From a virus: 33,407 nucleotides of DNA. The notes beneath the pieces were generated by a model. The model was not told where the DNA came from and searched no databases. It worked only from the letters and a program-made list of their open reading frames with translations. The stretch is from IMG/VR virus record IMGVR_UViG_3300022562_000272, positions 1 through 33,407 of that record. One strand, written 5' to 3'. A program made the translations under genes and the position numbers. Numbering within the stretch: the stretch's first letter is position 1; each line of letters opens with the position of its first letter. Shown piece by piece: positions 3,523 through 17,513 of the stretch.

Positions 3523-6057
3523 ATGGCGCAGATGACTCACCGTAGTTTTACAGGGGGAGAACTTGCACCGAGCTTACGTTCCCGCGCTGATCTCAGTAAA
3601 TATGCTACCGGTTTGGCGCTTTGTGAAAACTTCATTATTCGTTCGCAAGGAGGGGTATATAGCCGTCAAGGAACGAAGTTCATCGGCGAAGTAGGCCAAC
3701 CCACAAAACGAGCTAGACTGATACCATTTAGTTTTAGCACTGAACAAACATACATACTTGTATTTGAAGAATACACAATGCGAGTTATCAAGGATGGTGG
3801 ATTCGTTCTTGATGGCGCAGGTCCAGCATTATATGAGTTAGCTACTCCATACCCGGAAGCAGATCTCCCGCGATTGAGTTTTACACAAGATGCGGATGTC
3901 ATGACGATCTGCCATCCTGATTATGATCCCCGTGATTTAAGTCGAACAGCACACGATGCGTGGTCTCTCGATGTTATTAACTTCGACCCCCCGATAAGTG
4001 CTCCAACTTGGTATGCCCCTTCGGCGTCTATAACAAATATAACAAATGACACTAATGCATTAGTTACCACTGCTGCCGCGCATGGAATGGCGAGTGGGGA
4101 CCGTGTGTACGTAGCGGGGGTTAGCGGGATGACTGAAGTAAATGGATTGTATTTTTACATAACGTATGCTGGACCTAGTTCTTTTTATTTGAATGTAGAT
4201 AGTTCTACTTATGGAGTTTATACATCTGGCGGAACTGCCACTGCACAGTCATTGATCCCGACTGGTAGTGGAGCGGGTAGTTACAGTAAAATTTATACCT
4301 ATGTAATAACCGCTGTTGGCCCAGACGGTGAATCCCTTGGATCTAGTTCAAAATCCATTACAGTTGGGTCACTGTCTACTACTTATGGTATTCGATTAAA
4401 ATGGAATTCAGTACCGAACGCTCTTTATTATAGAGTTTATAAAGATCCTTCTAATGCTACAAACGTGTATGGGTGGGTAGGTGACTCAAATACGTTGGAG
4501 TTTACAGACTTTAATACTGCTCCCATAGTAACTGATGCCCCGCCAACTGATAATACTCCATTTAAAACTATTAGTGCCTCTATAACAAACATAACTCAAG
4601 CAAACCCCGCAGTGGTGACCGCAGTTGCTCATGGTTTTAGCACCGGTAACAATATATCGATAGCTAGTGTAGTTGGCATGACGGAAGTGAATAATTTAAC
4701 TTTCGTCATAACAGTGATTGATGAAGATAGTTTCAGTTTGAACGGAATAGATTCTTCTGCTTATACTGCATATACAAGTGGAGGAACGGCTACCAGAGTT
4801 AATAATAAACCGTCTGTAGTTGGGTATTATCAGCAACGTAGGATTTTTGCTAACACTACAGAGCTGCCACAAACAATGTACGGTACTCAAGTGAGTGCGT
4901 ATGAATCATTGAGATACTCAGTTCCTTCTCGGGATGATGATGCTATTACGTTGACAATTAAAAGCCGTCAAGTTAACGAAATCCGTCACATTACAGATGT
5001 AGATGGTTTAGTGTTACTTACTTCTGGAGCAGAGTGGAAGATAACCGAAGGTCAAGATGAAGTTTTAACACCGGCAACCGCAGGTGCAAAGACACAATCG
5101 TATAACGGGTCGAGTTGGGTGCAGCCTGTTATTGTCGGGGACACCCTTATCTATATCCAAGATAAAGGAAATAGAATCCGAGATCTTAAATATGAATTCA
5201 CCGCGAACAAATACACAGGAAGTGATTTATCAATCATGGCTGAACATTTGTTCGAGAATAATACTATTGAAGAAGTATCCTACTCCAAAGAACCTTATGG
5301 TCTTATTTGGATGGTTCGAGACGATGGAAAAATGCTAGGGCTTACCTATCAACGTGAGCATCAGGTATGGGCGTGGCATCAACATGACTTCGGTGGGATA
5401 GTTGAATCAGTAGCTACTGTGAGCGAAGGAAGTAGAGACGCAACATATATCTGCATCAAGAGAACAATCAACGGAAGCACTGTTCGATATGTAGAGAGAA
5501 TGGAACCCCGAGATATCACCGGTCCTGAATACGCATGGTGTGTTGATAGTGGGTTACGTTATGAAGGAGTTGCAACAACTTCAATCACCGGTGCCGATCA
5601 TTTAATCGGGGAACAAGTTGCGGTAGTGGCTGACGGAAATGAAGTTAAAGGTCTTACGGTGGATGCTACTGGGGGGATAACACTCCCGATATCTGCTTCG
5701 ATCGTAACACTTGGAAAAGCATTTACTCCAACTATGGAATTGCTTGATGTTGATATTTCTGATCCGAATAATACTCTCAAAGGTAAGAAAGTTTCAATTG
5801 CGCGAGTCATTATTGAAGTTGAGAAATCTCGCGGCGGGTGGGTCGGTCCTAAGCTGGATGATGGGTCCACTGGCGATATGATCGAAATCAAACCTAGGTT
5901 TGAGTCAGACGGATACGGCCCGATCGCTCTCAAGGACTTCAAACAAGAGATTCATATTGCTCCAGAATGGGGGTACGGAGGGGGGATACGCATTGAACAG
6001 CGCACGCCATTCCCTCTCGCCATACTATCGGTGATCCCTGATGTCGACGTTGGTTGA
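3523..6057 (+). CDS. Tail nozzle (tubular protein B, T7 gp12-like) with repeated FCCH-like domains
   Basis: An 844-residue protein. The first 50 residues have the nozzle family signature: SFTGGELAPSLRSRADLSKYATGL and then ENFIIRSQGGVYSRQGTKF. The central part carries inserted beta domains. Residues about 167-241 and 351-426 are two copies of one unit, each starting ASITNIT, with AHG and GMTEVN in the middle and ending YTSGGTAT. This pattern is the one annotated as 'ubiquitin-activating E1 FCCH domain' in many phage tail proteins. Between them, about 250-340, lies a fibronectin-III-like unit (YTYVITAVGPDGESL, then LYYRVYK). The remainder (about 430-844) returns to the nozzle core. The hexameric nozzle ends the tail tube and carries fibres or spikes. 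The inserted domains probably decorate the outside and may touch the host surface or other tail parts. Confidence 0.87.
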   Translation: MAQMTHRSFTGGELAPSLRSRADLSKYATGLALCENFIIRSQGGVYSRQGTKFIGEVGQPTKRARLIPFSFSTEQTYILVFEEYTMRVIKDGGFVLDGAGPALYELATPYPEADLPRLSFTQDADVMTICHPDYDPRDLSRTAHDAWSLDVINFDPPISAPTWYAPSASITNITNDTNALVTTAAAHGMASGDRVYVAGVSGMTEVNGLYFYITYAGPSSFYLNVDSSTYGVYTSGGTATAQSLIPTGSGAGSYSKIYTYVITAVGPDGESLGSSSKSITVGSLSTTYGIRLKWNSVPNALYYRVYKDPSNATNVYGWVGDSNTLEFTDFNTAPIVTDAPPTDNTPFKTISASITNITQANPAVVTAVAHGFSTGNNISIASVVGMTEVNNLTFVITVIDEDSFSLNGIDSSAYTAYTSGGTATRVNNKPSVVGYYQQRRIFANTTELPQTMYGTQVSAYESLRYSVPSRDDDAITLTIKSRQVNEIRHITDVDGLVLLTSGAEWKITEGQDEVLTPATAGAKTQSYNGSSWVQPVIVGDTLIYIQDKGNRIRDLKYEFTANKYTGSDLSIMAEHLFENNTIEEVSYSKEPYGLIWMVRDDGKMLGLTYQREHQVWAWHQHDFGGIVESVATVSEGSRDATYICIKRTINGSTVRYVERMEPRDITGPEYAWCVDSGLRYEGVATTSITGADHLIGEQVAVVADGNEVKGLTVDATGGITLPISASIVTLGKAFTPTMELLDVDISDPNNTLKGKKVSIARVIIEVEKSRGGWVGPKLDDGSTGDMIEIKPRFESDGYGPIALKDFKQEIHIAPEWGYGGGIRIEQRTPFPLAILSVIPDVDVG

Positions 6058-6505
6058 GTTCGTGCCCCCTAAGAAGGCGTATCTTCGTTATATTATTGAT
6101 AACATGAGAGAAGCCGATAAGATCGAAGTAATGGCTTCTCATGGGGCTACCCCTGGGCAGGCTATTCGTAACTCGGTGAAGATGTCTAATCGTGTCGCAG
6201 TGGTTCTATTTGACGGGAAGCCGGCTGCTGTTTTTGGTTTAGTTATCAAAGACTTACTAACGGGAACGGGGATCCCCTGGTTACTTGGTACGGATCTTAT
6301 CGATGAGCATCGCCTTGCATTTGTAAAAAATACACGTCCAGGTATCCAAGAGATGCTGTCTATCTGTCCCAGATTGGAGAATTACGTACATACAGAAAAC
6401 TCCAAAAGTGTTCGCTGGCTTGCTACAATGGGATTCAAGTTTGAAGACCCCGAGCCAATAGGTAGAAAAGGGGAACTTTTCAGCAAGTTTTGGATGGAGG
6501 CGTGA
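6041..6505 (+). CDS. T7 gp13-like protein (GNAT-fold, DUF2833)
   Basis: A 154-residue protein overlapping the end of the nozzle gene by 17 bases. Sequence elements such as AYLRYIIDNMREADKIEVMAS, then VAVVLFDGKPAAVFGLV, IPWLLGTD, and the final SVRWLATMGFKFEDPEPIG follow the acetyltransferase-like (GNAT) layout of the DUF2833 family, which includes T7 gp13. T7 gp13 is needed for virion assembly but its chemistry is unknown; a true acetyl-CoA-dependent activity cannot be claimed here because I see no clear acetyl-CoA pyrophosphate loop. Position directly before two internal virion proteins is as in T7. Confidence 0.75.
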   Translation: MSTLVEFVPPKKAYLRYIIDNMREADKIEVMASHGATPGQAIRNSVKMSNRVAVVLFDGKPAAVFGLVIKDLLTGTGIPWLLGTDLIDEHRLAFVKNTRPGIQEMLSICPRLENYVHTENSKSVRWLATMGFKFEDPEPIGRKGELFSKFWMEA

Positions 6506-6506
6506 T

Positions 6507-7022
6507 ATGTGTCACCCCGCAGCAATTTACGCAGTAGCCGCGTTACAGGCTTACAACTCTTACGAGCAGGGTAGATACGCCCGCGATGTTGGTCGCTATA
6601 ATGAGCGCTTACTTCAGAACGAAGCCATTCGTACCCGTAACAAAGGCACCGCCGAGGAAATGAAACAGCGCGAACGTACCGCGCAACTCATCTCCAAACA
6701 GAAGGTAGCAGCGGCAGCATCCGGTGTAGAAGTTGGTGGAGGATCTGCAGCTAAACTGCGCGAAGACACTGCACTACTCGGTGAAGTCGACGCTTTACAG
6801 ATCCGAAGTAATTTCCAAGACAAGGCACGTTCTCTTGAATATCAGGCATACCTCGCTGAGCGCCAAGGAGAGCACGCCTATCGAGCCGGAATTAAACAAG
6901 GGATAGCTCAGGCGGGTGCCACAATAATCGGAAGCGGCGTAGCGCAGAGTTGGTATACCCCCGCAAGTGCAGCTAGCACGGGAACAATGAGCGGAAGTGC
7001 GTCCATCGGTGCAATTGCATAG
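6507..7022 (+). CDS. Internal virion protein, T7 gp14-like
   Basis: A 171-residue protein with GGAGG 6 bases before its ATG. It begins MCHPAAIYAVAALQAYNSYEQ and is mostly one long charged, Ala/Gln/Arg-rich helix, including KQRERTAQLISKQKVAAAASG and VEVGGGSAAKLREDTALLGE. This pattern (short hydrophobic start, 'SGVxxxxGSxxxxxxDxAxxGxxD' core, Gly/Ser-rich tail) is that of the gp14-type ejection protein, which in T7 forms the outer-membrane part of the DNA channel. The C-terminal 45 residues are small and apolar (AGATIIGSGVAQ), suited to membrane insertion. The neighbours are gp13-like and gp15/gp16-like genes. Confidence 0.82.
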   Translation: MCHPAAIYAVAALQAYNSYEQGRYARDVGRYNERLLQNEAIRTRNKGTAEEMKQRERTAQLISKQKVAAAASGVEVGGGSAAKLREDTALLGEVDALQIRSNFQDKARSLEYQAYLAERQGEHAYRAGIKQGIAQAGATIIGSGVAQSWYTPASAASTGTMSGSASIGAIA

Positions 7023-7031
7023 GGTGAAGTT

Positions 7032-8633
7032 ATGCCGAAGATACCACAATATGGTGAGTTAAAAGTAGAAGAACAGATCGCTCAACCTGCGTTTGCGAAA
7101 GTGGACCCCAATGTCTACAACCAAGGCACAGTGAATCTATTAGCATCTACTGTGGTCAAGATGCAGCAGCAGGCTGCGGAATCCGAAGCGCATGAAGCCG
7201 TGGTGAATTTTGAACGTGATAAAAACAATCTGTTTTTCAATCCAGACACGGGGTATTTTAATACTCAAGGTCGTGATGCTTATGATAAAGCGAAGGGGGT
7301 CACAGATAGTCTTACCGAACTGAAAGCTAAATACGGTGATAAACTGTCCTCTGATATTGCTAAACGTGCGTTCGATAACGTTGCTACGCAGCATATTACT
7401 CGGGCTAACCAAGATATCATGCAGCACGCTAGTAAAGGGCTGAACGCCTGGGAAATCGGAACTATTAAATCTCAAGTTGAGAACACCCTTGAGAATGCGT
7501 CTCTTTATTGGAACGATGAGAACCGTCTGAAAGTTCAGCGTGAGCTTGGTCGGCAAAACGTCATGCAAGCAGCCGATAAAGAAGGCGTAAGTCCTGAAAC
7601 AAAGAATGAACGTCTTCAAACGTATGAATCCGCGTTTGCATCAGCAACCATAGAAGCGGCTACCAATAAAAGTTCACAGGATGGCAAGGATGCCTTGGAA
7701 AAATACAAGGAAAGACTGGAAGGGCCAGATGTTGTTAAGATGGAAAAGATCATCGCGACAAAAGCAAAAGCAGAGCAAACCGCACGAGACTCAGGTCAAG
7801 CTACAATGTTTGCTACTGCGATGCTCAGCAAACACGGTGATAGTGATACTGCACGCCAAGACATTATGGAAGAGGTTAATCAGATCAAAGATCCTGAAAT
7901 TCGCAAGAAAGCGATGAAAGAATCTATGTATCAGCTTGATCAAAAACTGAAAGCTGATTCAGAAGAAAAAGGTAAGATCTTTGAGAACGGCGAGAACTTC
8001 ATAATTAAGGGCGGTTCGATAGAACAATACAAAGCTATGCACCCTGACGAATGGAATAAGATGACGCCGAAACAAAAACGTGCGCTAGAAAGCGGCGAAT
8101 CTATCAGCACCGATTTTGTGGCACTGTCTAACCTTCTTACGTTGCCAAAAGAAAAGTTAGCGAAAGTAAACCCTCCTGACCACTTTGACAGCCTGAGCAA
8201 GACGGATAGAAGTAAGTTGATCAATGCGGTAAAAGCCGCGAGACAGGGCGGGCCAGAACATCAAGCAGGGCGCACTCGTATTAGTCAAACCAATGCAGCA
8301 GTCGAGCAGTTATTTGGTAAACGTAGCAGTTGGAGCACTAACGATAAAAAACTTATCAATCAGTTCTATAGTACATTTAATGATGAAGTAGAACTAAGAG
8401 AGCAATCGAAGGGCGCGCCTTTAACTGCTAAGGAGTACACCGAGGCGCTTAACGATATGACCAGAGAGCATGTCAAGAAGAAAAGCTTTCTCGGTATTGG
8501 TTACGAAAACAAACGGGATCTCACCGATCTGTCGGCTGAAGACCTTAAAGCGATATCGGACTATCTGCATAGAAACAATATACCGGCTACGGTGGACAAC
8601 ATTTTCAAAGCATATGATCAGGCTAATCAGTAA
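7032..8633 (+). CDS. Internal virion protein, T7 gp15 position
   Basis: A 533-residue, very hydrophilic, mainly alpha-helical protein, rich in Lys, Glu, Asp, Asn and Gln and with few aromatic clusters. It begins MPKIPQYGELKVEEQIAQPAF. Its place between the gp14-like gene and a giant gp16-like gene, its size and its helical composition make it the counterpart of T7 gp15, a periplasmic part of the ejection channel. I see no catalytic motif. The N-terminal pattern (NLLASTVVKMQQQAAESEAHEAVVNF, then GYFNTQGRDAYDKA) is of a kind common in ejection proteins of other podoviruses. Its TAA overlaps the ATG of the giant gene (TAATG). Confidence 0.75.
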   Translation: MPKIPQYGELKVEEQIAQPAFAKVDPNVYNQGTVNLLASTVVKMQQQAAESEAHEAVVNFERDKNNLFFNPDTGYFNTQGRDAYDKAKGVTDSLTELKAKYGDKLSSDIAKRAFDNVATQHITRANQDIMQHASKGLNAWEIGTIKSQVENTLENASLYWNDENRLKVQRELGRQNVMQAADKEGVSPETKNERLQTYESAFASATIEAATNKSSQDGKDALEKYKERLEGPDVVKMEKIIATKAKAEQTARDSGQATMFATAMLSKHGDSDTARQDIMEEVNQIKDPEIRKKAMKESMYQLDQKLKADSEEKGKIFENGENFIIKGGSIEQYKAMHPDEWNKMTPKQKRALESGESISTDFVALSNLLTLPKEKLAKVNPPDHFDSLSKTDRSKLINAVKAARQGGPEHQAGRTRISQTNAAVEQLFGKRSSWSTNDKKLINQFYSTFNDEVELREQSKGAPLTAKEYTEALNDMTREHVKKKSFLGIGYENKRDLTDLSAEDLKAISDYLHRNNIPATVDNIFKAYDQANQ

Positions 8634-11600
8634 TGGCACTCGACTTTGACAAAATCAACATAAGTTCTTTTAAGAGTCTCGATACTCAAGAAGATGTTGA
8701 CTCTGCAATTAAAGACCGGCAGCAACAGCAGCTAGGGGCCACACTCAGTGAAGCGGTCAAGGTTAATCCAGATCAACATGCTAAAATAAATCAGTTAGCC
8801 AAAGACTCAGGTGTGCCTGTTGAAGCGGTAGAGTCCGACCCTATCTCCATTGAAACGGATCTTAAATTAAAGAATATCGATCTCCGGGCAATGACCCGGC
8901 TAAATCCTACTACTAGTCGATTCTTGAATGACTATAACAACGCGGCAATGGCGCATGATGACGTTGAAACCCTTAAGCAATTAGAGGGAGTCATGGGCAC
9001 GATGAAGTTGCCCCCCTCTAAACCTAAGCAAGAGAAAACGGGGTTCTTTAAAAACTCCATGATCGGGGCGGCGGAACGTTTCGGCGAGATCGCGAGTTCT
9101 ATAAGTGATTTCGGCGAACAAGTCGGACAGTATTTAGAAGAAGAAGGGATGCTCAAACTCGGCGGATTTGTTATTGATGAGAGTTCTGCGTTCGGGGTAA
9201 GGTACGCTGGCCCAGAGGAATACGCTAAAAAATTAGCAGAGTTCAAAAAGAAAGGTGGCAAAAAGATCGGTGTGGCGCAAATGGTTGCCGGAATGGTCAA
9301 AGGCACTGGGGAGAAATTGGAAGAAGCTGCACCACTCGGCGGGTTCACGATGGACGATAACGCATTTCTCGGAGTGAGGTACGCAGGCCCCGAGGAATAT
9401 AAGAAACTTAAAACAGAAGCAGAGAAGGAAGGCATCAAGGACTTTCTTGACTACTCGGCTACCTATCTAAGCGAACACAAGTTCGGGTATACACCACAAG
9501 CTACCTGGGAGACTACCAAGAAAGCGTACAAAAGTGGCGACACTCTTGAAGCCATTGGTGAGACTGCTGCCTTTGGTTTTGAACAAGGGGTGCATTCAAT
9601 CGCCGATATGATTGCGGTTACTCGATCGCTCCCAGCATATGTTGCAGGTAGAGCGGCAGAGATGGGGCAAACTCGCGCCAAAAATAAAGGGATGGAAGAA
9701 GGCACCCTCAAGGAAACAATGGAGGCTATGCCTTTCGCGTTGGGGTCTGCGTTACTTGAACGCATTTTACCTGAGAAAGTGCTTGGCGGCATGAGTCACG
9801 CGGAAGTGAGCGCGATAGGTAAGGAAGCAATGGACGCATCCGCATCCGCTTTAAAAGAAGTCATGGCTAAAACTGGAAGCGGGTTTCTGACTGAAGCGTC
9901 CACTGAAGCTGTCCAAGAAGGATTGATCGAATATATCGGTGAAAAGTACGGCACCAAAGCTGAGATGTCGATTAAAGAATCTCTTGACAGAGCACTTGGC
10001 GGAGCAGTTGGCGGCGGCGTTGCCGGGGGCATGATGGGGGGCACTGCTGCCACTTTACAAGTGAGCATGAACACCTCTGGAAAAATGGTTCAAGCCAATG
10101 AAGCACAGTCTCAACAAGCTCGGCACGAAAATAAATTCAAACAAGAGCAAGCTACTATTGAAAAACTCAATACACTAGCAAGTGGATCACGACTGCGCCA
10201 GCGTAACCCCGAAGCATTCAAACAGTTCATTACTGACAGCGATGGCTCCAATCATACACACGTATTTATCAATAGCGATGCCGTTCAAAAATACCTAGCT
10301 GGTAAAGAGATTGAATCAGACTTTGCATTGATTGAACTCAGTGAAAAAGTATCTGAAGCAAAAGCACTCGGCGGTGATGTCGCGATTCCTATAAGTGATT
10401 TTGCTACATACATTGCCGGAACTCCACACTTCGATGCGCTTCGCCAATCGATGGCGTTGAGCGGTGAAATGCCTTCTCCACAAGAGCAGCCGCAAGTACA
10501 GGAAGAAACTAAGACATATATCGATGGACTGATGAAAGAAGCAGAGAAAAGCGCTTCACAATACGTCGAGTCACAACAGATTTATGAGAACGTGCGCCAG
10601 CAACTAGTTGATACCGGTATGGTTACTGAACAGAATGCGGGCGTAATGGCGCAGGTCGTACCTGCGTGGGCAACGGTGTATGCTGCTAAGAACGGCGTCA
10701 GTATTCAGGAAGCTTATCAACACTCAGGATTGACAATTGAAGGTCCGGCAACTGGTGTTGTATCTAAACCTGAAGATATTACTCCCCCCGAGATTCCTGC
10801 ATCTAAAATCGAAGAACGCGCTCCGGCTGCCCCTGCCGTATCAGGAGACCAACGTACGGCAGAAAGACGTACAGAACCACGTGAAACCGATCGTCGCATG
10901 GGTAAACGCCGCGAGGATATAGCTCGCCGTGAAAAAATTTCAGCAATGTCTGAGGAAGATCAGTACCGGGCCATTTATACGCACGAGTTATCAGGGCTTC
11001 ATAATCGCCGTGCATTCGAGGAAGACCTGCCTTCTGCTAAGTTTGTAGCCAGCATCGATGTGGATTCCCTCAAAGCTATCAATGACACATTAGGACATGG
11101 CGCAGGTGACTCATTATTGAAGGAGGCAGCTAAATCGGTCTTTCAAATATTTGAAGGAGATGCGTATCATATCTCTGGCGATGAGATGTATGTGCTAACT
11201 GATAGTGAAGAAAAAATTCATGAAGGATTAGCGAAAGCACAAGAAGCATTGAAGGATGTTACTGTAGGGTCAGAGCAAGGAACCTTTAAAGGTATCCAGT
11301 TTACTTACGGCATATCAAAGACTAAAGGTGACGCTGAAAAGACTAAGAATGCTGCGGATCATGCGATGGAACTCGCTAAAGTCGAACGTGAAAAAGCAGG
11401 CATCCGTACACCACGTGGGCAATTGCCTCCGGGACTAGAGATCAAACCAGAGCCGGGTGCTCCTGTTCAGACTGAGCTTAAGTTCAAACAAGGGGAACGT
11501 GGGTATTATGAGCCTGGAAAGTCGTTAATCCGTCTGACTGAATCCGCAGACCTCAGCACATTTTTACATGAGTTCGCGCATTTCATATATGAAATGGAGC

Positions 11601-14600
11601 TACAAACTAACAGTGACACGATTCAGAGTATAAATAACTGGTACAAGCGTAATGCAAAAGAAGTAGCGGCTGAAGCCAACCAAACGGAAGAACCTGACTT
11701 CCGTATGGAGGAAATCACTGAACAAGATGTCGTTACTTATCTTGATACCGGAACCACGGGAAACAAAATCCAGGACGGCGAAATCCGTCGCGCTGTGCAT
11801 GAACAGTTCGCACGGGGATTCGAAACCTACCTGATGGAAGGTAAGGCACCGAGTATTGAGCTTCGCAACGCTTTCCGAACGTTTGCTCGCTGGTTAACTC
11901 AGATATACCGTTCCTTGCGCGGTCAATTAAAAGTCAATCTGGATGATGAAATGCGTCAGGTGTTCGATCGTCTACTTGCCACCGATGATCAGATTGCTGC
12001 TGCTGAAGCGCGTGCTAAGTATGCGCCGATGTTTACCGACGCTGTGATGGCGGGTATGACCGAAGAAGAATTTGTTAAATACAAAGCGCAGCAAGATAAG
12101 GTCAAAGATAAAGAGACCGAGACTCTGCGAGATCAATTAATCCATGAGATTACGCGCCAAACTAAATCTTGGTGGAAGGAAGAAAAGAAGGATCTTATCG
12201 ATGAAAAGATGGACTTGCTTAAAGATGAACCGGTGTACCGTGCGACTGAAGGACTAAAGTCTGGCGAAGTGAAACTCGACTACGTTACTATCAAGGAGAT
12301 GGTAGGCGAAGAACGTAGTGATTCCCTCGGCAGAAAGTCAGTTCGTATCCCAGAGAAACTGCGAGGCATGACGGCTAAAGGTGCGCAGGGCGTTCACCCA
12401 GATGAAGCCGCTGCGTTCTATGGGTTCAAGTCCGGTTCTGAAATGATTCAAGCGCTCATTGACGCACCTCCTATCAAGCAACGCGCAGACGCGATGGCCG
12501 AGCAAGATATGCTGAATCGACACGGCGACATTTTGCACGATGGCACCATCGAACAGCGTGCGGATGAAGCGGTTCTCAATGAAGAACGCGGCAAGTTGTT
12601 ACTGCAAGAATTGAAGGTATTAAGTAGAGGCTCGAAAGTTCCGACACTAGATCGCATGACAATCAAGTCAATGGCAGAAGATAACATTGCCAAACTGAAT
12701 TATAAAGAAATCATCCCTAACAAGTATCGCAAGGCCGAGATAAAAGCCGCGCAGGAGTCTGCCACATTGCTCGCATCTGGTGACAGAGAAGGTGCTGCCC
12801 GCGCTAAAGCTCGTCAAGTAATGAATTATTACTTAGGCATGGCTGCAACCAATGCAAAGAATGAAACGCTTAAAATCGTTGATCGCATGGCTCGCTATAA
12901 CAAGAAAAAAGTTCGTGAGGAAATCCAGAAAGCGGAGAACGGATACTGGGAGCAAATTGAAAAGATCCTACGCAGGTTCGAGTTCCGTAAATCTGTACCA
13001 ATGAAGCGAGTCGAACAAGTCAATCAGGATATCAATAGCTGGATGAAAGAACGTATGGACGTTGATGGAGATGCATTGATCCTCGATCCTGTGGTGCTCG
13101 ATGAGACATACGTTACCCACTGGAAAAATATTAAGTTCGGCGATCTTCAAGGTATTAATGACTCGGTTAAGAACATAGAACATGTTGCTCGCTATAGCAA
13201 TAAACTCATTCGCATGGGTGAAGAAATCGAATTTAAGAAACTGGTAAGCCGCTGGGCTGCTCACATGGATGCCGCCCAGGTAGACAGGTTCAAAGCACAA
13301 CGCACTGATGCCGTTCGTGGTAAGAAATGGGGCCGGTGGGCGATGGCTCAGATGACCAAGATCCCCTTTTTAGCTTCTTGGCTGGACGGAGGCGAAAGGG
13401 TTGGCATGAGTCATGACATTCTTGTGCAGCCCTTCACGGATGCCGCAGACGCCGAGATTCGTCTCTGGGGTGAAGTGGGTGACGTGGTTATGAACGCCAT
13501 TAAAAGCCGCTCAAAAGCGGATGTGAAGCGCCACAACCGCAAGATATTCATACCTGAGCTGAAGGATGCCGTGAATGATGGTAACTTACTGGGGCACCAA
13601 GTTCTCGCGGTAGCTTTGAACACCGGTAACGCGGGGAACCTACGTAAACTGTTACTCGGTGAAGGGTGGGCCAATCCTGACATTGAGGAAGAAATTACGC
13701 TTGAGAATCCTAAACTTAAGGCTGTTCTTAAGCACATGACCAAGAGCGACTGGGATTTGGTTCAAACGATCTGGGATCAAATGGATGCACTATACCCACA
13801 GCTATCAGAAGTGCATCGCAGAACTACGGGGCTGGTCCCGCCGAAGGTCGAAGCATCCCCGGTGGAGACCGAGTTTGGTGTCTATCGTGGGGGGTATTAT
13901 CCGGTCAAATATGACCCTAATAGGAGCCACAAGGCAGAGCTTGACGCGGATCGCCTAGATGCCCAGACCGAATCTATGTTCAGCACAATTGGCAGCATAC
14001 AAGCCTCTGTGAACGCTTCAGCGACCAACGCACGCACAGGGTACTATGCGCCGATTCGTTTGAGTCTTGACGTAGTGCCGGGGCATTTCCAAGAAGTTAT
14101 CCACTATATCACCCATCATGATGCCGTGAGAGAAGTTAATAAGCTGCTTAGAAATCAAACTGTTGCAGATAAGATCAAGGCCAAAGTTGGGCCTGAAGAG
14201 TTTGCACAGCTTAAACCGTGGCTCAATGATATCGCTAAGGATGGTCGGACAGCTCCCACCAAGATGTTCTGGGATGACATGATCGGTAGGCTTCGGTTTG
14301 GCCTCACCCTGGGTACGATGGGGTTCAGGGTTACCACGGGGGTGCTTCAGGTATCAGGTCTCTCCAACACCATAGGGGAGGTAGGTATCAAACCGATGCT
14401 CCAGGCATCCAGATCGATTTTAGGCAGTGTATCCACGATCAAGGAAGCATGGGACTTTGCGAACAGCAATTCTAAAGTATTGAATCATCGTACAAAAACG
14501 ATGGATCGCGAGATTAAGAACGCGATGCATCGGTTAGCCAATAAAAAGGGCATGCTTGCGGCAGTGCAAGAGGCGTCGATGAAGCACATCGCCTATATCC

Positions 14601-15313
14601 AGACTTATGCGGTTGACTTAGTAAGCTGGCACGCAGCCTATATCAAGAAACTCAGTGAAACCGGGGACGAGCAAAAAGCGTTCCAATATGGAGATTGGGT
14701 GGTGGAGCAGGTGCAAGGTTCCGGTATGACAAAAGATATGGCTCGAATAATGCGTAGTCAAAGCGAGAGTGGTAGAATGTTCACTATGTTCATGACATTC
14801 TTTAGTTCTCAATGGAACGTTCAAAGGGACATCGCGAAAGGCGCTAGATCAGGACGGTATTCGATTACTACTATCGCGGCTAAACTTATGTTTGTTATGA
14901 CGATACCAATGCTTTTTGAAATGTTGTTACGTGGTGAGTTGAGCGGTGATGACGATGAGAAAAAGAGGCAAAAGATACTGACGAATACCGCGACATACCC
15001 CTTCCAATCGATACCGTTTGTGAGGGATATTGTCAATGGCGCGACCGGTGAGTATGGCTACAATATCTCACCGATCGCTAGTGTGATAGAAGGCGGAACC
15101 CGTGCTATACCTAAATTAGTCACTGCTCCGCTTACCGATGACGAGATTACTAAATCTCAAGTTAAATCGGGATCAAAAGTTGTTGGAGCAGCGTTTGGCG
15201 TACCCGGTGTGAACCAAGCATGGGCGACCGGTGAACATCTCTATGATGTGATGGAAAACGGTGAAGATTTTAGTGTTCAAGAATTATTATTCGGGCCAAA
15301 CCGAAACAAGTAA
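8633..15313 (+). CDS. Giant internal virion/DNA-ejection protein with GGDEF and zincin domains
   Basis: A 2226-residue protein in the position of T7 gp16, translationally coupled to the preceding gene. Regions: (a) 1-270, low-similarity N-terminus with a duplicated unit (GVRYAGPEEY at 188-197 and 247-256). (b) About 452-472, a Gly-rich apolar stretch (GGAVGGGVAGGMMGG) fit for membrane insertion. (c) About 775-925, a GGDEF-type domain: ELSGLHNRRAF at 785-795, DVDSLKAINDTLGHGAGD at 809-826, SGDEM at 848-852 in place of GGDEF. (d) A zincin motif HEFAH at 979-983, with EQFARGFE at 1057-1064 as a possible third-ligand region. (e) 1100-1600, long charged helices. (f) About 1600-2226, a C-terminal region of the type seen in large polyvalent phage proteins (GYYPVKY, later SGRMFTMFMTFFSSQW and apolar helices). 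It should enter the host with the DNA. The enzymatic activities are inferred from motifs. Confidence 0.85.
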   Translation: MALDFDKINISSFKSLDTQEDVDSAIKDRQQQQLGATLSEAVKVNPDQHAKINQLAKDSGVPVEAVESDPISIETDLKLKNIDLRAMTRLNPTTSRFLNDYNNAAMAHDDVETLKQLEGVMGTMKLPPSKPKQEKTGFFKNSMIGAAERFGEIASSISDFGEQVGQYLEEEGMLKLGGFVIDESSAFGVRYAGPEEYAKKLAEFKKKGGKKIGVAQMVAGMVKGTGEKLEEAAPLGGFTMDDNAFLGVRYAGPEEYKKLKTEAEKEGIKDFLDYSATYLSEHKFGYTPQATWETTKKAYKSGDTLEAIGETAAFGFEQGVHSIADMIAVTRSLPAYVAGRAAEMGQTRAKNKGMEEGTLKETMEAMPFALGSALLERILPEKVLGGMSHAEVSAIGKEAMDASASALKEVMAKTGSGFLTEASTEAVQEGLIEYIGEKYGTKAEMSIKESLDRALGGAVGGGVAGGMMGGTAATLQVSMNTSGKMVQANEAQSQQARHENKFKQEQATIEKLNTLASGSRLRQRNPEAFKQFITDSDGSNHTHVFINSDAVQKYLAGKEIESDFALIELSEKVSEAKALGGDVAIPISDFATYIAGTPHFDALRQSMALSGEMPSPQEQPQVQEETKTYIDGLMKEAEKSASQYVESQQIYENVRQQLVDTGMVTEQNAGVMAQVVPAWATVYAAKNGVSIQEAYQHSGLTIEGPATGVVSKPEDITPPEIPASKIEERAPAAPAVSGDQRTAERRTEPRETDRRMGKRREDIARREKISAMSEEDQYRAIYTHELSGLHNRRAFEEDLPSAKFVASIDVDSLKAINDTLGHGAGDSLLKEAAKSVFQIFEGDAYHISGDEMYVLTDSEEKIHEGLAKAQEALKDVTVGSEQGTFKGIQFTYGISKTKGDAEKTKNAADHAMELAKVEREKAGIRTPRGQLPPGLEIKPEPGAPVQTELKFKQGERGYYEPGKSLIRLTESADLSTFLHEFAHFIYEMELQTNSDTIQSINNWYKRNAKEVAAEANQTEEPDFRMEEITEQDVVTYLDTGTTGNKIQDGEIRRAVHEQFARGFETYLMEGKAPSIELRNAFRTFARWLTQIYRSLRGQLKVNLDDEMRQVFDRLLATDDQIAAAEARAKYAPMFTDAVMAGMTEEEFVKYKAQQDKVKDKETETLRDQLIHEITRQTKSWWKEEKKDLIDEKMDLLKDEPVYRATEGLKSGEVKLDYVTIKEMVGEERSDSLGRKSVRIPEKLRGMTAKGAQGVHPDEAAAFYGFKSGSEMIQALIDAPPIKQRADAMAEQDMLNRHGDILHDGTIEQRADEAVLNEERGKLLLQELKVLSRGSKVPTLDRMTIKSMAEDNIAKLNYKEIIPNKYRKAEIKAAQESATLLASGDREGAARAKARQVMNYYLGMAATNAKNETLKIVDRMARYNKKKVREEIQKAENGYWEQIEKILRRFEFRKSVPMKRVEQVNQDINSWMKERMDVDGDALILDPVVLDETYVTHWKNIKFGDLQGINDSVKNIEHVARYSNKLIRMGEEIEFKKLVSRWAAHMDAAQVDRFKAQRTDAVRGKKWGRWAMAQMTKIPFLASWLDGGERVGMSHDILVQPFTDAADAEIRLWGEVGDVVMNAIKSRSKADVKRHNRKIFIPELKDAVNDGNLLGHQVLAVALNTGNAGNLRKLLLGEGWANPDIEEEITLENPKLKAVLKHMTKSDWDLVQTIWDQMDALYPQLSEVHRRTTGLVPPKVEASPVETEFGVYRGGYYPVKYDPNRSHKAELDADRLDAQTESMFSTIGSIQASVNASATNARTGYYAPIRLSLDVVPGHFQEVIHYITHHDAVREVNKLLRNQTVADKIKAKVGPEEFAQLKPWLNDIAKDGRTAPTKMFWDDMIGRLRFGLTLGTMGFRVTTGVLQVSGLSNTIGEVGIKPMLQASRSILGSVSTIKEAWDFANSNSKVLNHRTKTMDREIKNAMHRLANKKGMLAAVQEASMKHIAYIQTYAVDLVSWHAAYIKKLSETGDEQKAFQYGDWVVEQVQGSGMTKDMARIMRSQSESGRMFTMFMTFFSSQWNVQRDIAKGARSGRYSITTIAAKLMFVMTIPMLFEMLLRGELSGDDDEKKRQKILTNTATYPFQSIPFVRDIVNGATGEYGYNISPIASVIEGGTRAIPKLVTAPLTDDEITKSQVKSGSKVVGAAFGVPGVNQAWATGEHLYDVMENGEDFSVQELLFGPNRNK

Positions 15314-15323
15314 GGGTTAAATC

Positions 15324-17513
15324 ATGACAGTAAATACCAGTAGTACTACATCGGGGCCATACGCGGGCAATGATGTCACAGTAGACTTCTCCTATACTTT
15401 TCGGATTGAAGATAAATCTCAATTAACTGTGTACCTAACTGACGCGCTAGGTGCAGTTAGTATTCTTACGGTCGATGTGGATTACACTGTTGCCGGGATC
15501 GGTGTTGATGGCGGTGGAACTATCACGATGACGGTCGCCCCCGCAACCGGCGAAACGTTATTCATTCGATCCAGTTATTCTCCTACTCAATTAACGGATT
15601 TTGATAGTCAAGGGGGTTTCTATCCTACCGTTCATGAAGCTGCATTCGACAAACTCACTTTCTTAATTCAACAAATACTTGATGTTCAAGACCGTAGGAC
15701 TCTGCTTTTCAATGATAACCTTAATCGTGCATCTACTCTCAATTTAATCCCTGACCCCGTTGAAGGACAAGTATTAGCGTGGCAAAGCGATGGGAGCTTG
15801 GGCAATACCCCGCTAGTTGTTTCCACTACGTCTGCATCATATATCGGCGTAGCGACATATACCCTTCTTAAAGCGATATCTATCGGGGGTCTTGCCGAAG
15901 CTACGCCGGTGATTGTTAAGCATCGATCAACGGAAGGAGATCGCGGCGGCGGCATCTTTCATTGGTATGGCGCGGATTTATCCGCCCAAGTCACCGCAGA
16001 TACCAGCGAAGGTATTTATGTTCCTCCAACATCCGATACCAGTGGTGCAAGTGGTTGTTGGGTAAGACAGCGACCAAATTTGGCGGTATCACCCCGGTGG
16101 TACGGCGCAAAAGGTGACGGAGTTACTAACGACAAAACTGCGTGCCTAGCGGCTATTGCTTCAGGTTTCCCTGTTTATTGGGAAGAAGGAACCTATTTAA
16201 CTGATGGAAGTTTAATTCACAATAGTGCAGCTTGGTTTGGAGATGGATGGCATAAGAGTATCATCAAGTGCTCAGGAGATAATGGGGGGGTTGAGTTCTT
16301 AAAACCTCCTGTGGATTGGAGTGGGATGGCGGTAGAAGGGGATGTTTATCAAGGGACCGCAGTAGCAATGGGGCAAGAATACAGTTTCACCGGTGGACAA
16401 TACTGGAGAAATTTACGGGTCTATTATTTTGATCTAGGGGTACGCGCATATAATTTTTACAATGTTCATTGGGATCATTTTAATATTGTTTATAACAATA
16501 ACGGTTTGCGTATAACCCCCCTTAACGGTGTAGGAGATGATGGGTATTTCACTACTTTCCAAATGGATAGTTGCTTGCTTGGATACGGTACTGGATACGG
16601 TATCAGATGCAGTGTTCCGCTCGGAAACCGCAACTGGATGATGAATAACTGTGTGGTTGAAGGATTCTGTAGTGGAAGCTCTACTGCGACCTTTCAAGGA
16701 ACATGGGATGTGGCAACGGCTTATGCTTTGAACGATGCTGTTATTTATAACTATGTTAGATATGTAGCTAATCAAGCCACCTTAGCAGGAGATACGCCTG
16801 GAGTATCCGGCAAATGGGATGCGCAATCAGCTCTTGCTCAGATTCAACTAAGTAATGCTAAGATCAATGCAAACGGTCTCTATATGGAAGCGTGTTCAGG
16901 TGCTCCAGCCATTTCTGTAGAAGATTCGAACGGCATGACACTATTCATACAAGACCCGTATTTTAATGGAACTGGCGGTGTTTGGGCGGGCACTGGCTCT
17001 TTTATTGGTGCATTTAAAGAAGGTTCGCATGTAAGCGCTAATGATAAGATGATTTGGTGGGCTGGCAGTATTATTCAGAAGTTGATGAAATATAATAGTT
17101 CAGTTACCCCAAGTGTTGAAAGTCCTACACATATAACAGATATTGCACAAGAGACACTAAAGACGCCTAAACTATATTTGGGTAACGCAGCACTAGCAGC
17201 TGTGAATCAAGGTATTTATTTTAATATGGCGTGGCGCAAGAGTTTGAACGGTGTAAGTGTCACCTCTGGAAGTATTGTCACTGTAGTAACTAATCAATAT
17301 TACTCGGGTATCGCTACCAATGGATCGATTGGTAAAGGATTTATATATGGGGGATATTATCCTGGAGCAATTGTCAACATCACACCGGCAACAACAGGAA
17401 GTACTGAGTATTGGTGCGCCCACATTTACAATGCTTCAGGATCAACGATCAACTTTGGCGCGGCGGATTATCTGAATGTTATGTTCTTTAAAACTGAATA
17501 CTTGGGTATTTAA
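15324..17513 (+). CDS. Tailspike / tail fibre with beta-helix and inserted CBM-like module
   Basis: A 729-residue protein. Residues 1 to about 120 have the N-terminal tail-binding pattern of T7-type fibres (PYAGNDVTVDFSYTFRI, a GGG-containing beta region, then HEAAFDKLTFLIQQI). At about 258-290 a pectate-lyase-type beta-helix start is visible: RWYGAKGDGVTNDKT and a following Y-L-T-D. The following 200 residues have the short-repeat Asn/Gly/Val style of a right-handed beta-helix. At about 459-500 a segment WDVATAYALNDAVIYNYVRY ending GVSGKWDA resembles a CBM5/12 (chitin-binding-type) module inserted in the helix. Such spikes bind and often cleave capsule or O-antigen polysaccharide. Enzyme activity and sugar target cannot be told from sequence. 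Confidence 0.8.
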   Translation: MTVNTSSTTSGPYAGNDVTVDFSYTFRIEDKSQLTVYLTDALGAVSILTVDVDYTVAGIGVDGGGTITMTVAPATGETLFIRSSYSPTQLTDFDSQGGFYPTVHEAAFDKLTFLIQQILDVQDRRTLLFNDNLNRASTLNLIPDPVEGQVLAWQSDGSLGNTPLVVSTTSASYIGVATYTLLKAISIGGLAEATPVIVKHRSTEGDRGGGIFHWYGADLSAQVTADTSEGIYVPPTSDTSGASGCWVRQRPNLAVSPRWYGAKGDGVTNDKTACLAAIASGFPVYWEEGTYLTDGSLIHNSAAWFGDGWHKSIIKCSGDNGGVEFLKPPVDWSGMAVEGDVYQGTAVAMGQEYSFTGGQYWRNLRVYYFDLGVRAYNFYNVHWDHFNIVYNNNGLRITPLNGVGDDGYFTTFQMDSCLLGYGTGYGIRCSVPLGNRNWMMNNCVVEGFCSGSSTATFQGTWDVATAYALNDAVIYNYVRYVANQATLAGDTPGVSGKWDAQSALAQIQLSNAKINANGLYMEACSGAPAISVEDSNGMTLFIQDPYFNGTGGVWAGTGSFIGAFKEGSHVSANDKMIWWAGSIIQKLMKYNSSVTPSVESPTHITDIAQETLKTPKLYLGNAALAAVNQGIYFNMAWRKSLNGVSVTSGSIVTVVTNQYYSGIATNGSIGKGFIYGGYYPGAIVNITPATTGSTEYWCAHIYNASGSTINFGAADYLNVMFFKTEYLGI

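Follow-up and report, generated by a model that had tools for sequence, protein, structure and literature searches.

Why does a phage carry a GGDEF (diguanylate cyclase-type) domain inside a giant protein encoded among its predicted ejection genes? We addressed this question in a 33,407-nucleotide stretch of viral DNA (IMG/VR record IMGVR_UViG_3300022562_000272), which we call the window. A preliminary description, made from the letters alone, had placed the domain at positions 10961-11407, as residues 777-925 of the ORF at 8633-15313. These coordinates are exact, and the landmarks described with them, which are ELSGLHNRRAF at residues 785-795, D809 at the head of DVDSLKAINDTLGHGAGD, and SGDEM at residues 848-852, are correct to the residue. 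The features that we assigned are listed in Table 1.

Table 1. Features of the giant protein and its neighboring genes (window positions; residues are those of the giant protein)
Feature	Residues	Window position	Strand	Basis or remark
Predicted internal virion protein		6041..6505	+	PHROG 308, E 6.9e-38
Predicted internal virion protein		6507..7022	+	PHROG 418, E 1.5e-26
Predicted structural lysozyme, upstream of giant gene		7032..8633	+	PHROG 10475 endolysin, E 6.8e-19
Giant polyvalent ejection-type protein, 2226 aa		8633..15313	+	PHROG 9880; BPP-1 Bbp10 relative
LPD22 domain	36-121	8738..8995	+	Pfam PF18834, E 2.7e-17
Conserved N-terminal anchor of slot	about 487-715	10091..10777	+	Alignment with relatives
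Cargo slot	about 716-953	10778..11491	+	Alignment with relatives
N-terminal helical stalk of GGDEF module	754-782	10892..10978	+	Model helices 2-18, 22-30
GGDEF domain (Pfam limits)	785-919	10985..11389	+	PF00990; fold match; family alignment
D809 (metal), N817 and D826 (guanine recognition)	in DVDSLKAINDTLGHGAGD	11057..11110	+	Invariant, 21/21 phage relatives
SGDEM active-site loop	848-852	11174..11188	+	SGDEF in most relatives
Zincin-like metallopeptidase domain	954-1120	11492..11992	+	Alignments; model
HEFAH (HExxH) zinc motif	979-983	11567..11581	+	Kept in annotated relatives
Conserved C-terminal backbone	1121-2226	11993..15310	+	62-68% identity to Vibrio phages

The giant protein and its gene neighborhood

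The ORF that contains the domain is intact over 2226 codons. The nearer relatives of its product are proteins of the Vibrio phages PS25B.1, 1.021.A, 1.185.O, and MZH0603, and more distant relatives occur in Pseudomonas phage AF, Bordetella phage BPP-1 (Bbp10), and Caulobacter phage RapA. Megablast with the giant gene returned no near-identical phage records, and PADLOC gave no defense-system match for the protein. LPD22, an N-terminal mark of polyvalent proteins, scored above the Pfam cut-off in almost every annotated phage relative that we scanned. The protein has the makeup of a polyvalent protein: it is giant and multi-domain, with LPD22, an HExxH domain, and a slot that carries ART, PBECR, GNAT, or GGDEF modules.

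The set of genes around the giant protein is an ejection cassette. Matches to PHROG 308 and PHROG 418 upstream bear out the earlier placement of the giant gene beside genes for predicted internal virion proteins. The gene for the predicted structural lysozyme occupies the same place as bbp11, which encodes a soluble transglycosylase, and as the structural lysozyme gene of phage AF. A tail spike is encoded downstream of the giant gene. The giant protein had also been said to sit in the position of T7 gp16. This stands for gene order, as the two proteins have a comparable place in the ejection cassette, but it does not extend to homology: we found no sequence relation to T7 gp16 and rejected a gp16 relative as the identity of the protein, whose sequence relatives are the Bbp10-like proteins. 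The window also differs from T7 in having the lysozyme-like function in the upstream gene; Pfam and PHROG gave no match to a lytic transglycosylase domain in the giant protein, and the only lysozyme-type match was in the gene upstream. In the literature that we read, we found no virion proteomics or enzyme assay for the giant protein or its relatives and no experimental evidence of Bbp10-like proteins inside virions.

We made several other observations in this region. Residues about 172-262 of the giant protein (window 9146-9419) contain two similar stretches, LGGFVIDESSAFGVRYAGPEEY and LGGFTMDDNAFLGVRYAGPEEY. The surrounding region aligns poorly with the Vibrio phages, and no DNA-level repeats were detected in the N-terminal part of the gene. 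The tail spike (window 15324-17513) has a pectate-lyase-like domain and a weak match to a chitin-binding domain (CBM_5_12); since relatives infect Vibrio, chitin surfaces may matter for this protein. A tail protein (window 3523-6057) contains two E1 FCCH domains, known from ubiquitin-activating enzymes, in line with the annotation of the Vibrio relatives.

Fold, active site, and relatives of the GGDEF domain

PF00990 matched the whole giant protein with 48.6 bits (E 1e-12) and the GGDEF segment alone with 55.8 bits, compared to a curated cut-off of 23.8 bits. When the single sequence was searched against the PDB with phmmer, diguanylate cyclases were matched (best E 1.4e-7), and a profile built from the phage relatives matched 48 PDB sequences, nearly all of them GGDEF proteins (best E 3.5e-17). 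Structure prediction, which the preliminary description had proposed as a check, also gives the GGDEF fold. An AlphaFold model of residues 753-936, built on 18 phage sequences, has a pLDDT of 92.7; Foldseek ranked diguanylate cyclases at the top (SiaD, 7e6g, E 1.3e-10), and the closest solved match in structural alignment was 3ign (Z 18.2, rmsd 1.8 over 143 residues). Since DgcB (6ttr), which consists of a coiled coil and a GGDEF domain, aligns with the model over 168 residues (Z 17.4, rmsd 6.7), the predicted helix that precedes the domain resembles a dimerization stalk.

To describe the active site, we compared the domain with 21 phage relatives that are 37-58% identical to it. D809, D811, K814, N817, D818, G825, and D826 are invariant, as are G849, D850, E851, K916, R919, G923, and R925, in agreement with the earlier view that the catalytic residues are intact. 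The metal- and guanine-binding residues (D809, N817, D826) and the (G/S/A)G(D/E)E motif (G849, D850, E851) are therefore all present. D809, N817, and D826 have the spacing of D327, N335, and D344 of PleD. Within the active-site loop, G, D, and E are invariant and the first S is found in 19 of the 21 relatives, while M is confined to the window copy. Of the C-terminal Lys and Arg that bind phosphate, the Lys (PleD K442) is kept; the position of PleD Arg446 is Glu by sequence count, and an Arg one residue before it is invariant in the clade. Proteins with SGDEF can be active, as exemplified by ECA3270 (cited in PMC3974145) and by MbaA of Vibrio cholerae, for which the in vivo activity comes from genetic evidence (PMC8079147). 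The RxxD inhibition site (I-site), already described as absent from the window protein, is missing in 20 of 21 relatives. The sole phage-type GGDEF domain of the 21 with an RxxD near the inhibition-site spacing (RHTDEAYHISGDEF) is in L107 (7001-7426).

The best relatives of the window domain are phage proteins, not bacterial cyclases. In a tree that included the nearest bacterial GGDEF domains, picked as nearest hits from 84,980 genomes, a branch supported at 98/98 separates the phage-type sequences from the others; some members of the phage-type group come from bacterial MAG contigs and are labeled phage-type by sequence. The clade includes solo proteins of YuA, Churro, and Bordetella phage CN1, encoded beside anti-restriction genes, as well as domains within other giant polyvalent proteins. 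YuA gp44 and the solo GGDEF proteins of Vojvodinavirus share the clade, its signature, about 40% identity, and the lack of an I-site with the window domain, but they are free-standing proteins of 150 residues and belong to siphoviruses. With the bacterial enzymes PleD, DgcB, SiaD, and MbaA, the phage domain shares the fold, the catalytic residues, and a helical stalk before the domain, whereas it lacks a sensor domain and an I-site, has an SGDEF or SGDEM loop, and carries a changed C-terminal motif, KxxRExxGxR.

In L103, L104, L106, L107, L110, L111, L112, and L120, an inorganic pyrophosphatase (InPase) domain and a phage-type GGDEF domain occur in the same giant polyvalent protein. Overall, 9 of 12 other giant polyvalent ORFs combine the two domains; since L111 and L113 are near copies, eight of the nine are distinct. 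The order of the domains varies, and they are often close together. The InPase domain might remove pyrophosphate made by the cyclase. As just 3 of 80 InPase ORFs carry a GGDEF domain, the pairing may be a lineage effect, and we rejected it as proof of activity, taking it as weak support only.

The cargo slot and the adjoining predicted metallopeptidase domain

When the window protein was aligned with that of MZH0603, both flanks matched and about residues 714-953 were without a partner. Among relatives, this slot varies in length: it is nearly empty in L002 and Vibrio phage MZH0603, with 20-26 aa, and reaches about 2000 aa in others. In a Pfam scan of 77 slots, we detected ART-PolyVal (24), PBECR5 (10), GNAT (7), and GGDEF (4), as well as Zeta toxin, RadC, kinase, and other domains. 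The four slots with GGDEF all come from metagenomic sequences. The slot contains PBECR1 in BPP-1, ART-PolyVal in RapA, and LPD23 in AF. Even sister phages differ by whole modules, with GGDEF-GNAT-ART in L023, GGDEF-ART in L065, and GGDEF alone in the window.

On the backbone tree, a quick tree with long branches on which slots cut by contig ends were counted as none/other, cargo is randomly distributed: the tree requires 18 changes of cargo class, compared to 18.1 for shuffled labels, and two of GGDEF. By these comparisons, the GGDEF domain is one of the cargo modules that can be exchanged in the slot of this predicted polyvalent ejection protein, a relative of Bbp10. Bbp10 and its counterparts in AF, RapA, and MZH0603 share the backbone, the place in the cassette, LPD22, and the HExxH domain with the window protein; they differ in that their slot holds PBECR1, LPD23, ART-PolyVal, or nothing, and not GGDEF. 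In a separate observation, L005 (2992-10533) and L023 (6959-15373) carry nearly identical GNAT cargo (FGFVENKGRNKDFEIS) in otherwise different slots, suggesting that cargo is exchanged between phages.

An HExxH motif directly follows the slot in every annotated phage relative; the motif played no part in finding these relatives. Its conservation in the IMG/VR set proves nothing, because that set was found with the motif. A model of the domain that contains it (pLDDT 84.6) has the zincin domain of a lethal factor protein as its best solved match, which is weak (Z 5.1 over 100 residues). Iyer et al. independently link this class of metallopeptidase to the same protein and propose that it divides polyvalent proteins into functional parts (PMC5512222).

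A candidate injected diguanylate cyclase

The alignments and models show a predicted GGDEF fold with intact active-site residues and a lost I-site, carried in a slot for alternative cargo next to an HExxH domain. With a probability of about 0.5, we propose that the domain is an injected diguanylate cyclase, a packaged cargo that is probably cut free and that would increase host c-di-GMP at an early stage of infection. The giant protein would be packaged in the virion and enter the host with the DNA. The neighboring predicted metallopeptidase would probably free the GGDEF cargo, a release that we infer because Iyer et al. propose cutting by this domain (PMC5512222). Once free, the module may pair through its N-terminal helical stalk and convert GTP to c-di-GMP without product inhibition, such that host c-di-GMP would rise early in infection. 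On a rough scale, ten copies working at 0.5 molecules per second would make about 300 molecules in a minute, which is about 0.5 micromolar at a cell volume of 1 fL and within the range of high-affinity c-di-GMP receptors. The rise would alter motility, receptors, or the polysaccharide of the cell surface, or interfere with nucleotide-based defense; loss of motility and each of the other changes are possible gains for the phage. Phage N4, for example, depends on a c-di-GMP-controlled glycan (PMC8669472).

One alternative is that the window copy is a weak, degenerating GGDEF domain that serves as a decoy binding GTP or c-di-GMP, or that the ejection protein keeps as an inert spacer. SGDEM and an extra 7-residue insert are peculiar to the window copy, which is also the faster-evolving branch of its subgroup, and it is only 57% identical to its sisters, compared to 75-77% for the backbone. 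However, it retains all catalytic residues. A c-di-GMP sponge acting through the I-site, one form of the decoy suggested in the preliminary description, is unlikely given the lack of that site, and a spacer is not needed, since MZH0603 and L002 do without the module. The sister copies in L023 and L065 are under strong purifying selection: dN/dS is 0.07 for the GGDEF domain (dS 1.34), 0.05 for the C-terminal backbone, and 0.49 for the short linker before GGDEF (19 codons), values that cover this pair and not the window copy, dS between the window and the sisters being saturated. We therefore consider degeneration unlikely.

The domain could instead act in the producing cell or lysogen, as proposed for the YuA-like solo proteins, which are ordinary genes beside anti-restriction genes. 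LK3 lysogens of Bordetella form more biofilm, and the authors point to the phage GGDEF gene, which was not knocked out, so that GGDEF as the cause was not tested there (PMC8471281). Since the window domain is built into an ejection-cassette protein, within an effector-bearing slot and adjoining a metallopeptidase, we regard this explanation as somewhat less probable than degeneration. We give still less weight to a third possibility, that the domain makes cGAMP or another nucleotide signal that triggers or foils a CBASS-like defense. GGDEF enzymes with different products are known, and the cGAMP-making Hypr enzymes have Ser in place of the base-recognizing Asp (PMC6456294). The C-terminal motif of the phage clade does differ from that of bacterial enzymes, but N817 and D826 are invariant, with Asp826 in 21/21 sequences where the Hypr criterion calls for Ser or Thr. 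Because this Asp is kept, cGAMP, which had been put forward as a possible product, is less likely than c-di-GMP.

The presence of GGDEF domains within polyvalent phage proteins is already known, as the preliminary description had noted: Iyer et al. predicted it in 2017 and proposed interference with host nucleotide signaling (PMC5512222). A protein of an Acetonema prophage from that work, WP_004096050, is likewise a giant protein that combines GGDEF with MPTase and LPD domains and is predicted to be injected (PMC5512222). Unlike in the proteins of Iyer et al., the GGDEF domain of the window occupies a slot of a BPP-1-like podovirus protein that can be shown to be swappable: close relatives have it empty or filled with another cargo. 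What is new here is this slot, which can be empty, filled with alternative cargo, or stacked, together with the phage-specific GGDEF clade and the loss of its inhibition site.

More broadly, and at somewhat less than even odds, virions may deliver a ready-made, feedback-insensitive c-di-GMP synthase, freed by a built-in protease, that would reprogram host signaling before phage gene expression. Close relatives, in which the giant protein has an empty slot, a different cargo, or GGDEF, provide natural controls, and solo members of the clade are available in laboratory phages that can be cultured, such as YuA. Thus, injection of a second-messenger enzyme is directly testable, and the slot-plus-protease layout offers a route to listing more effectors that BPP-1-like phages may inject.
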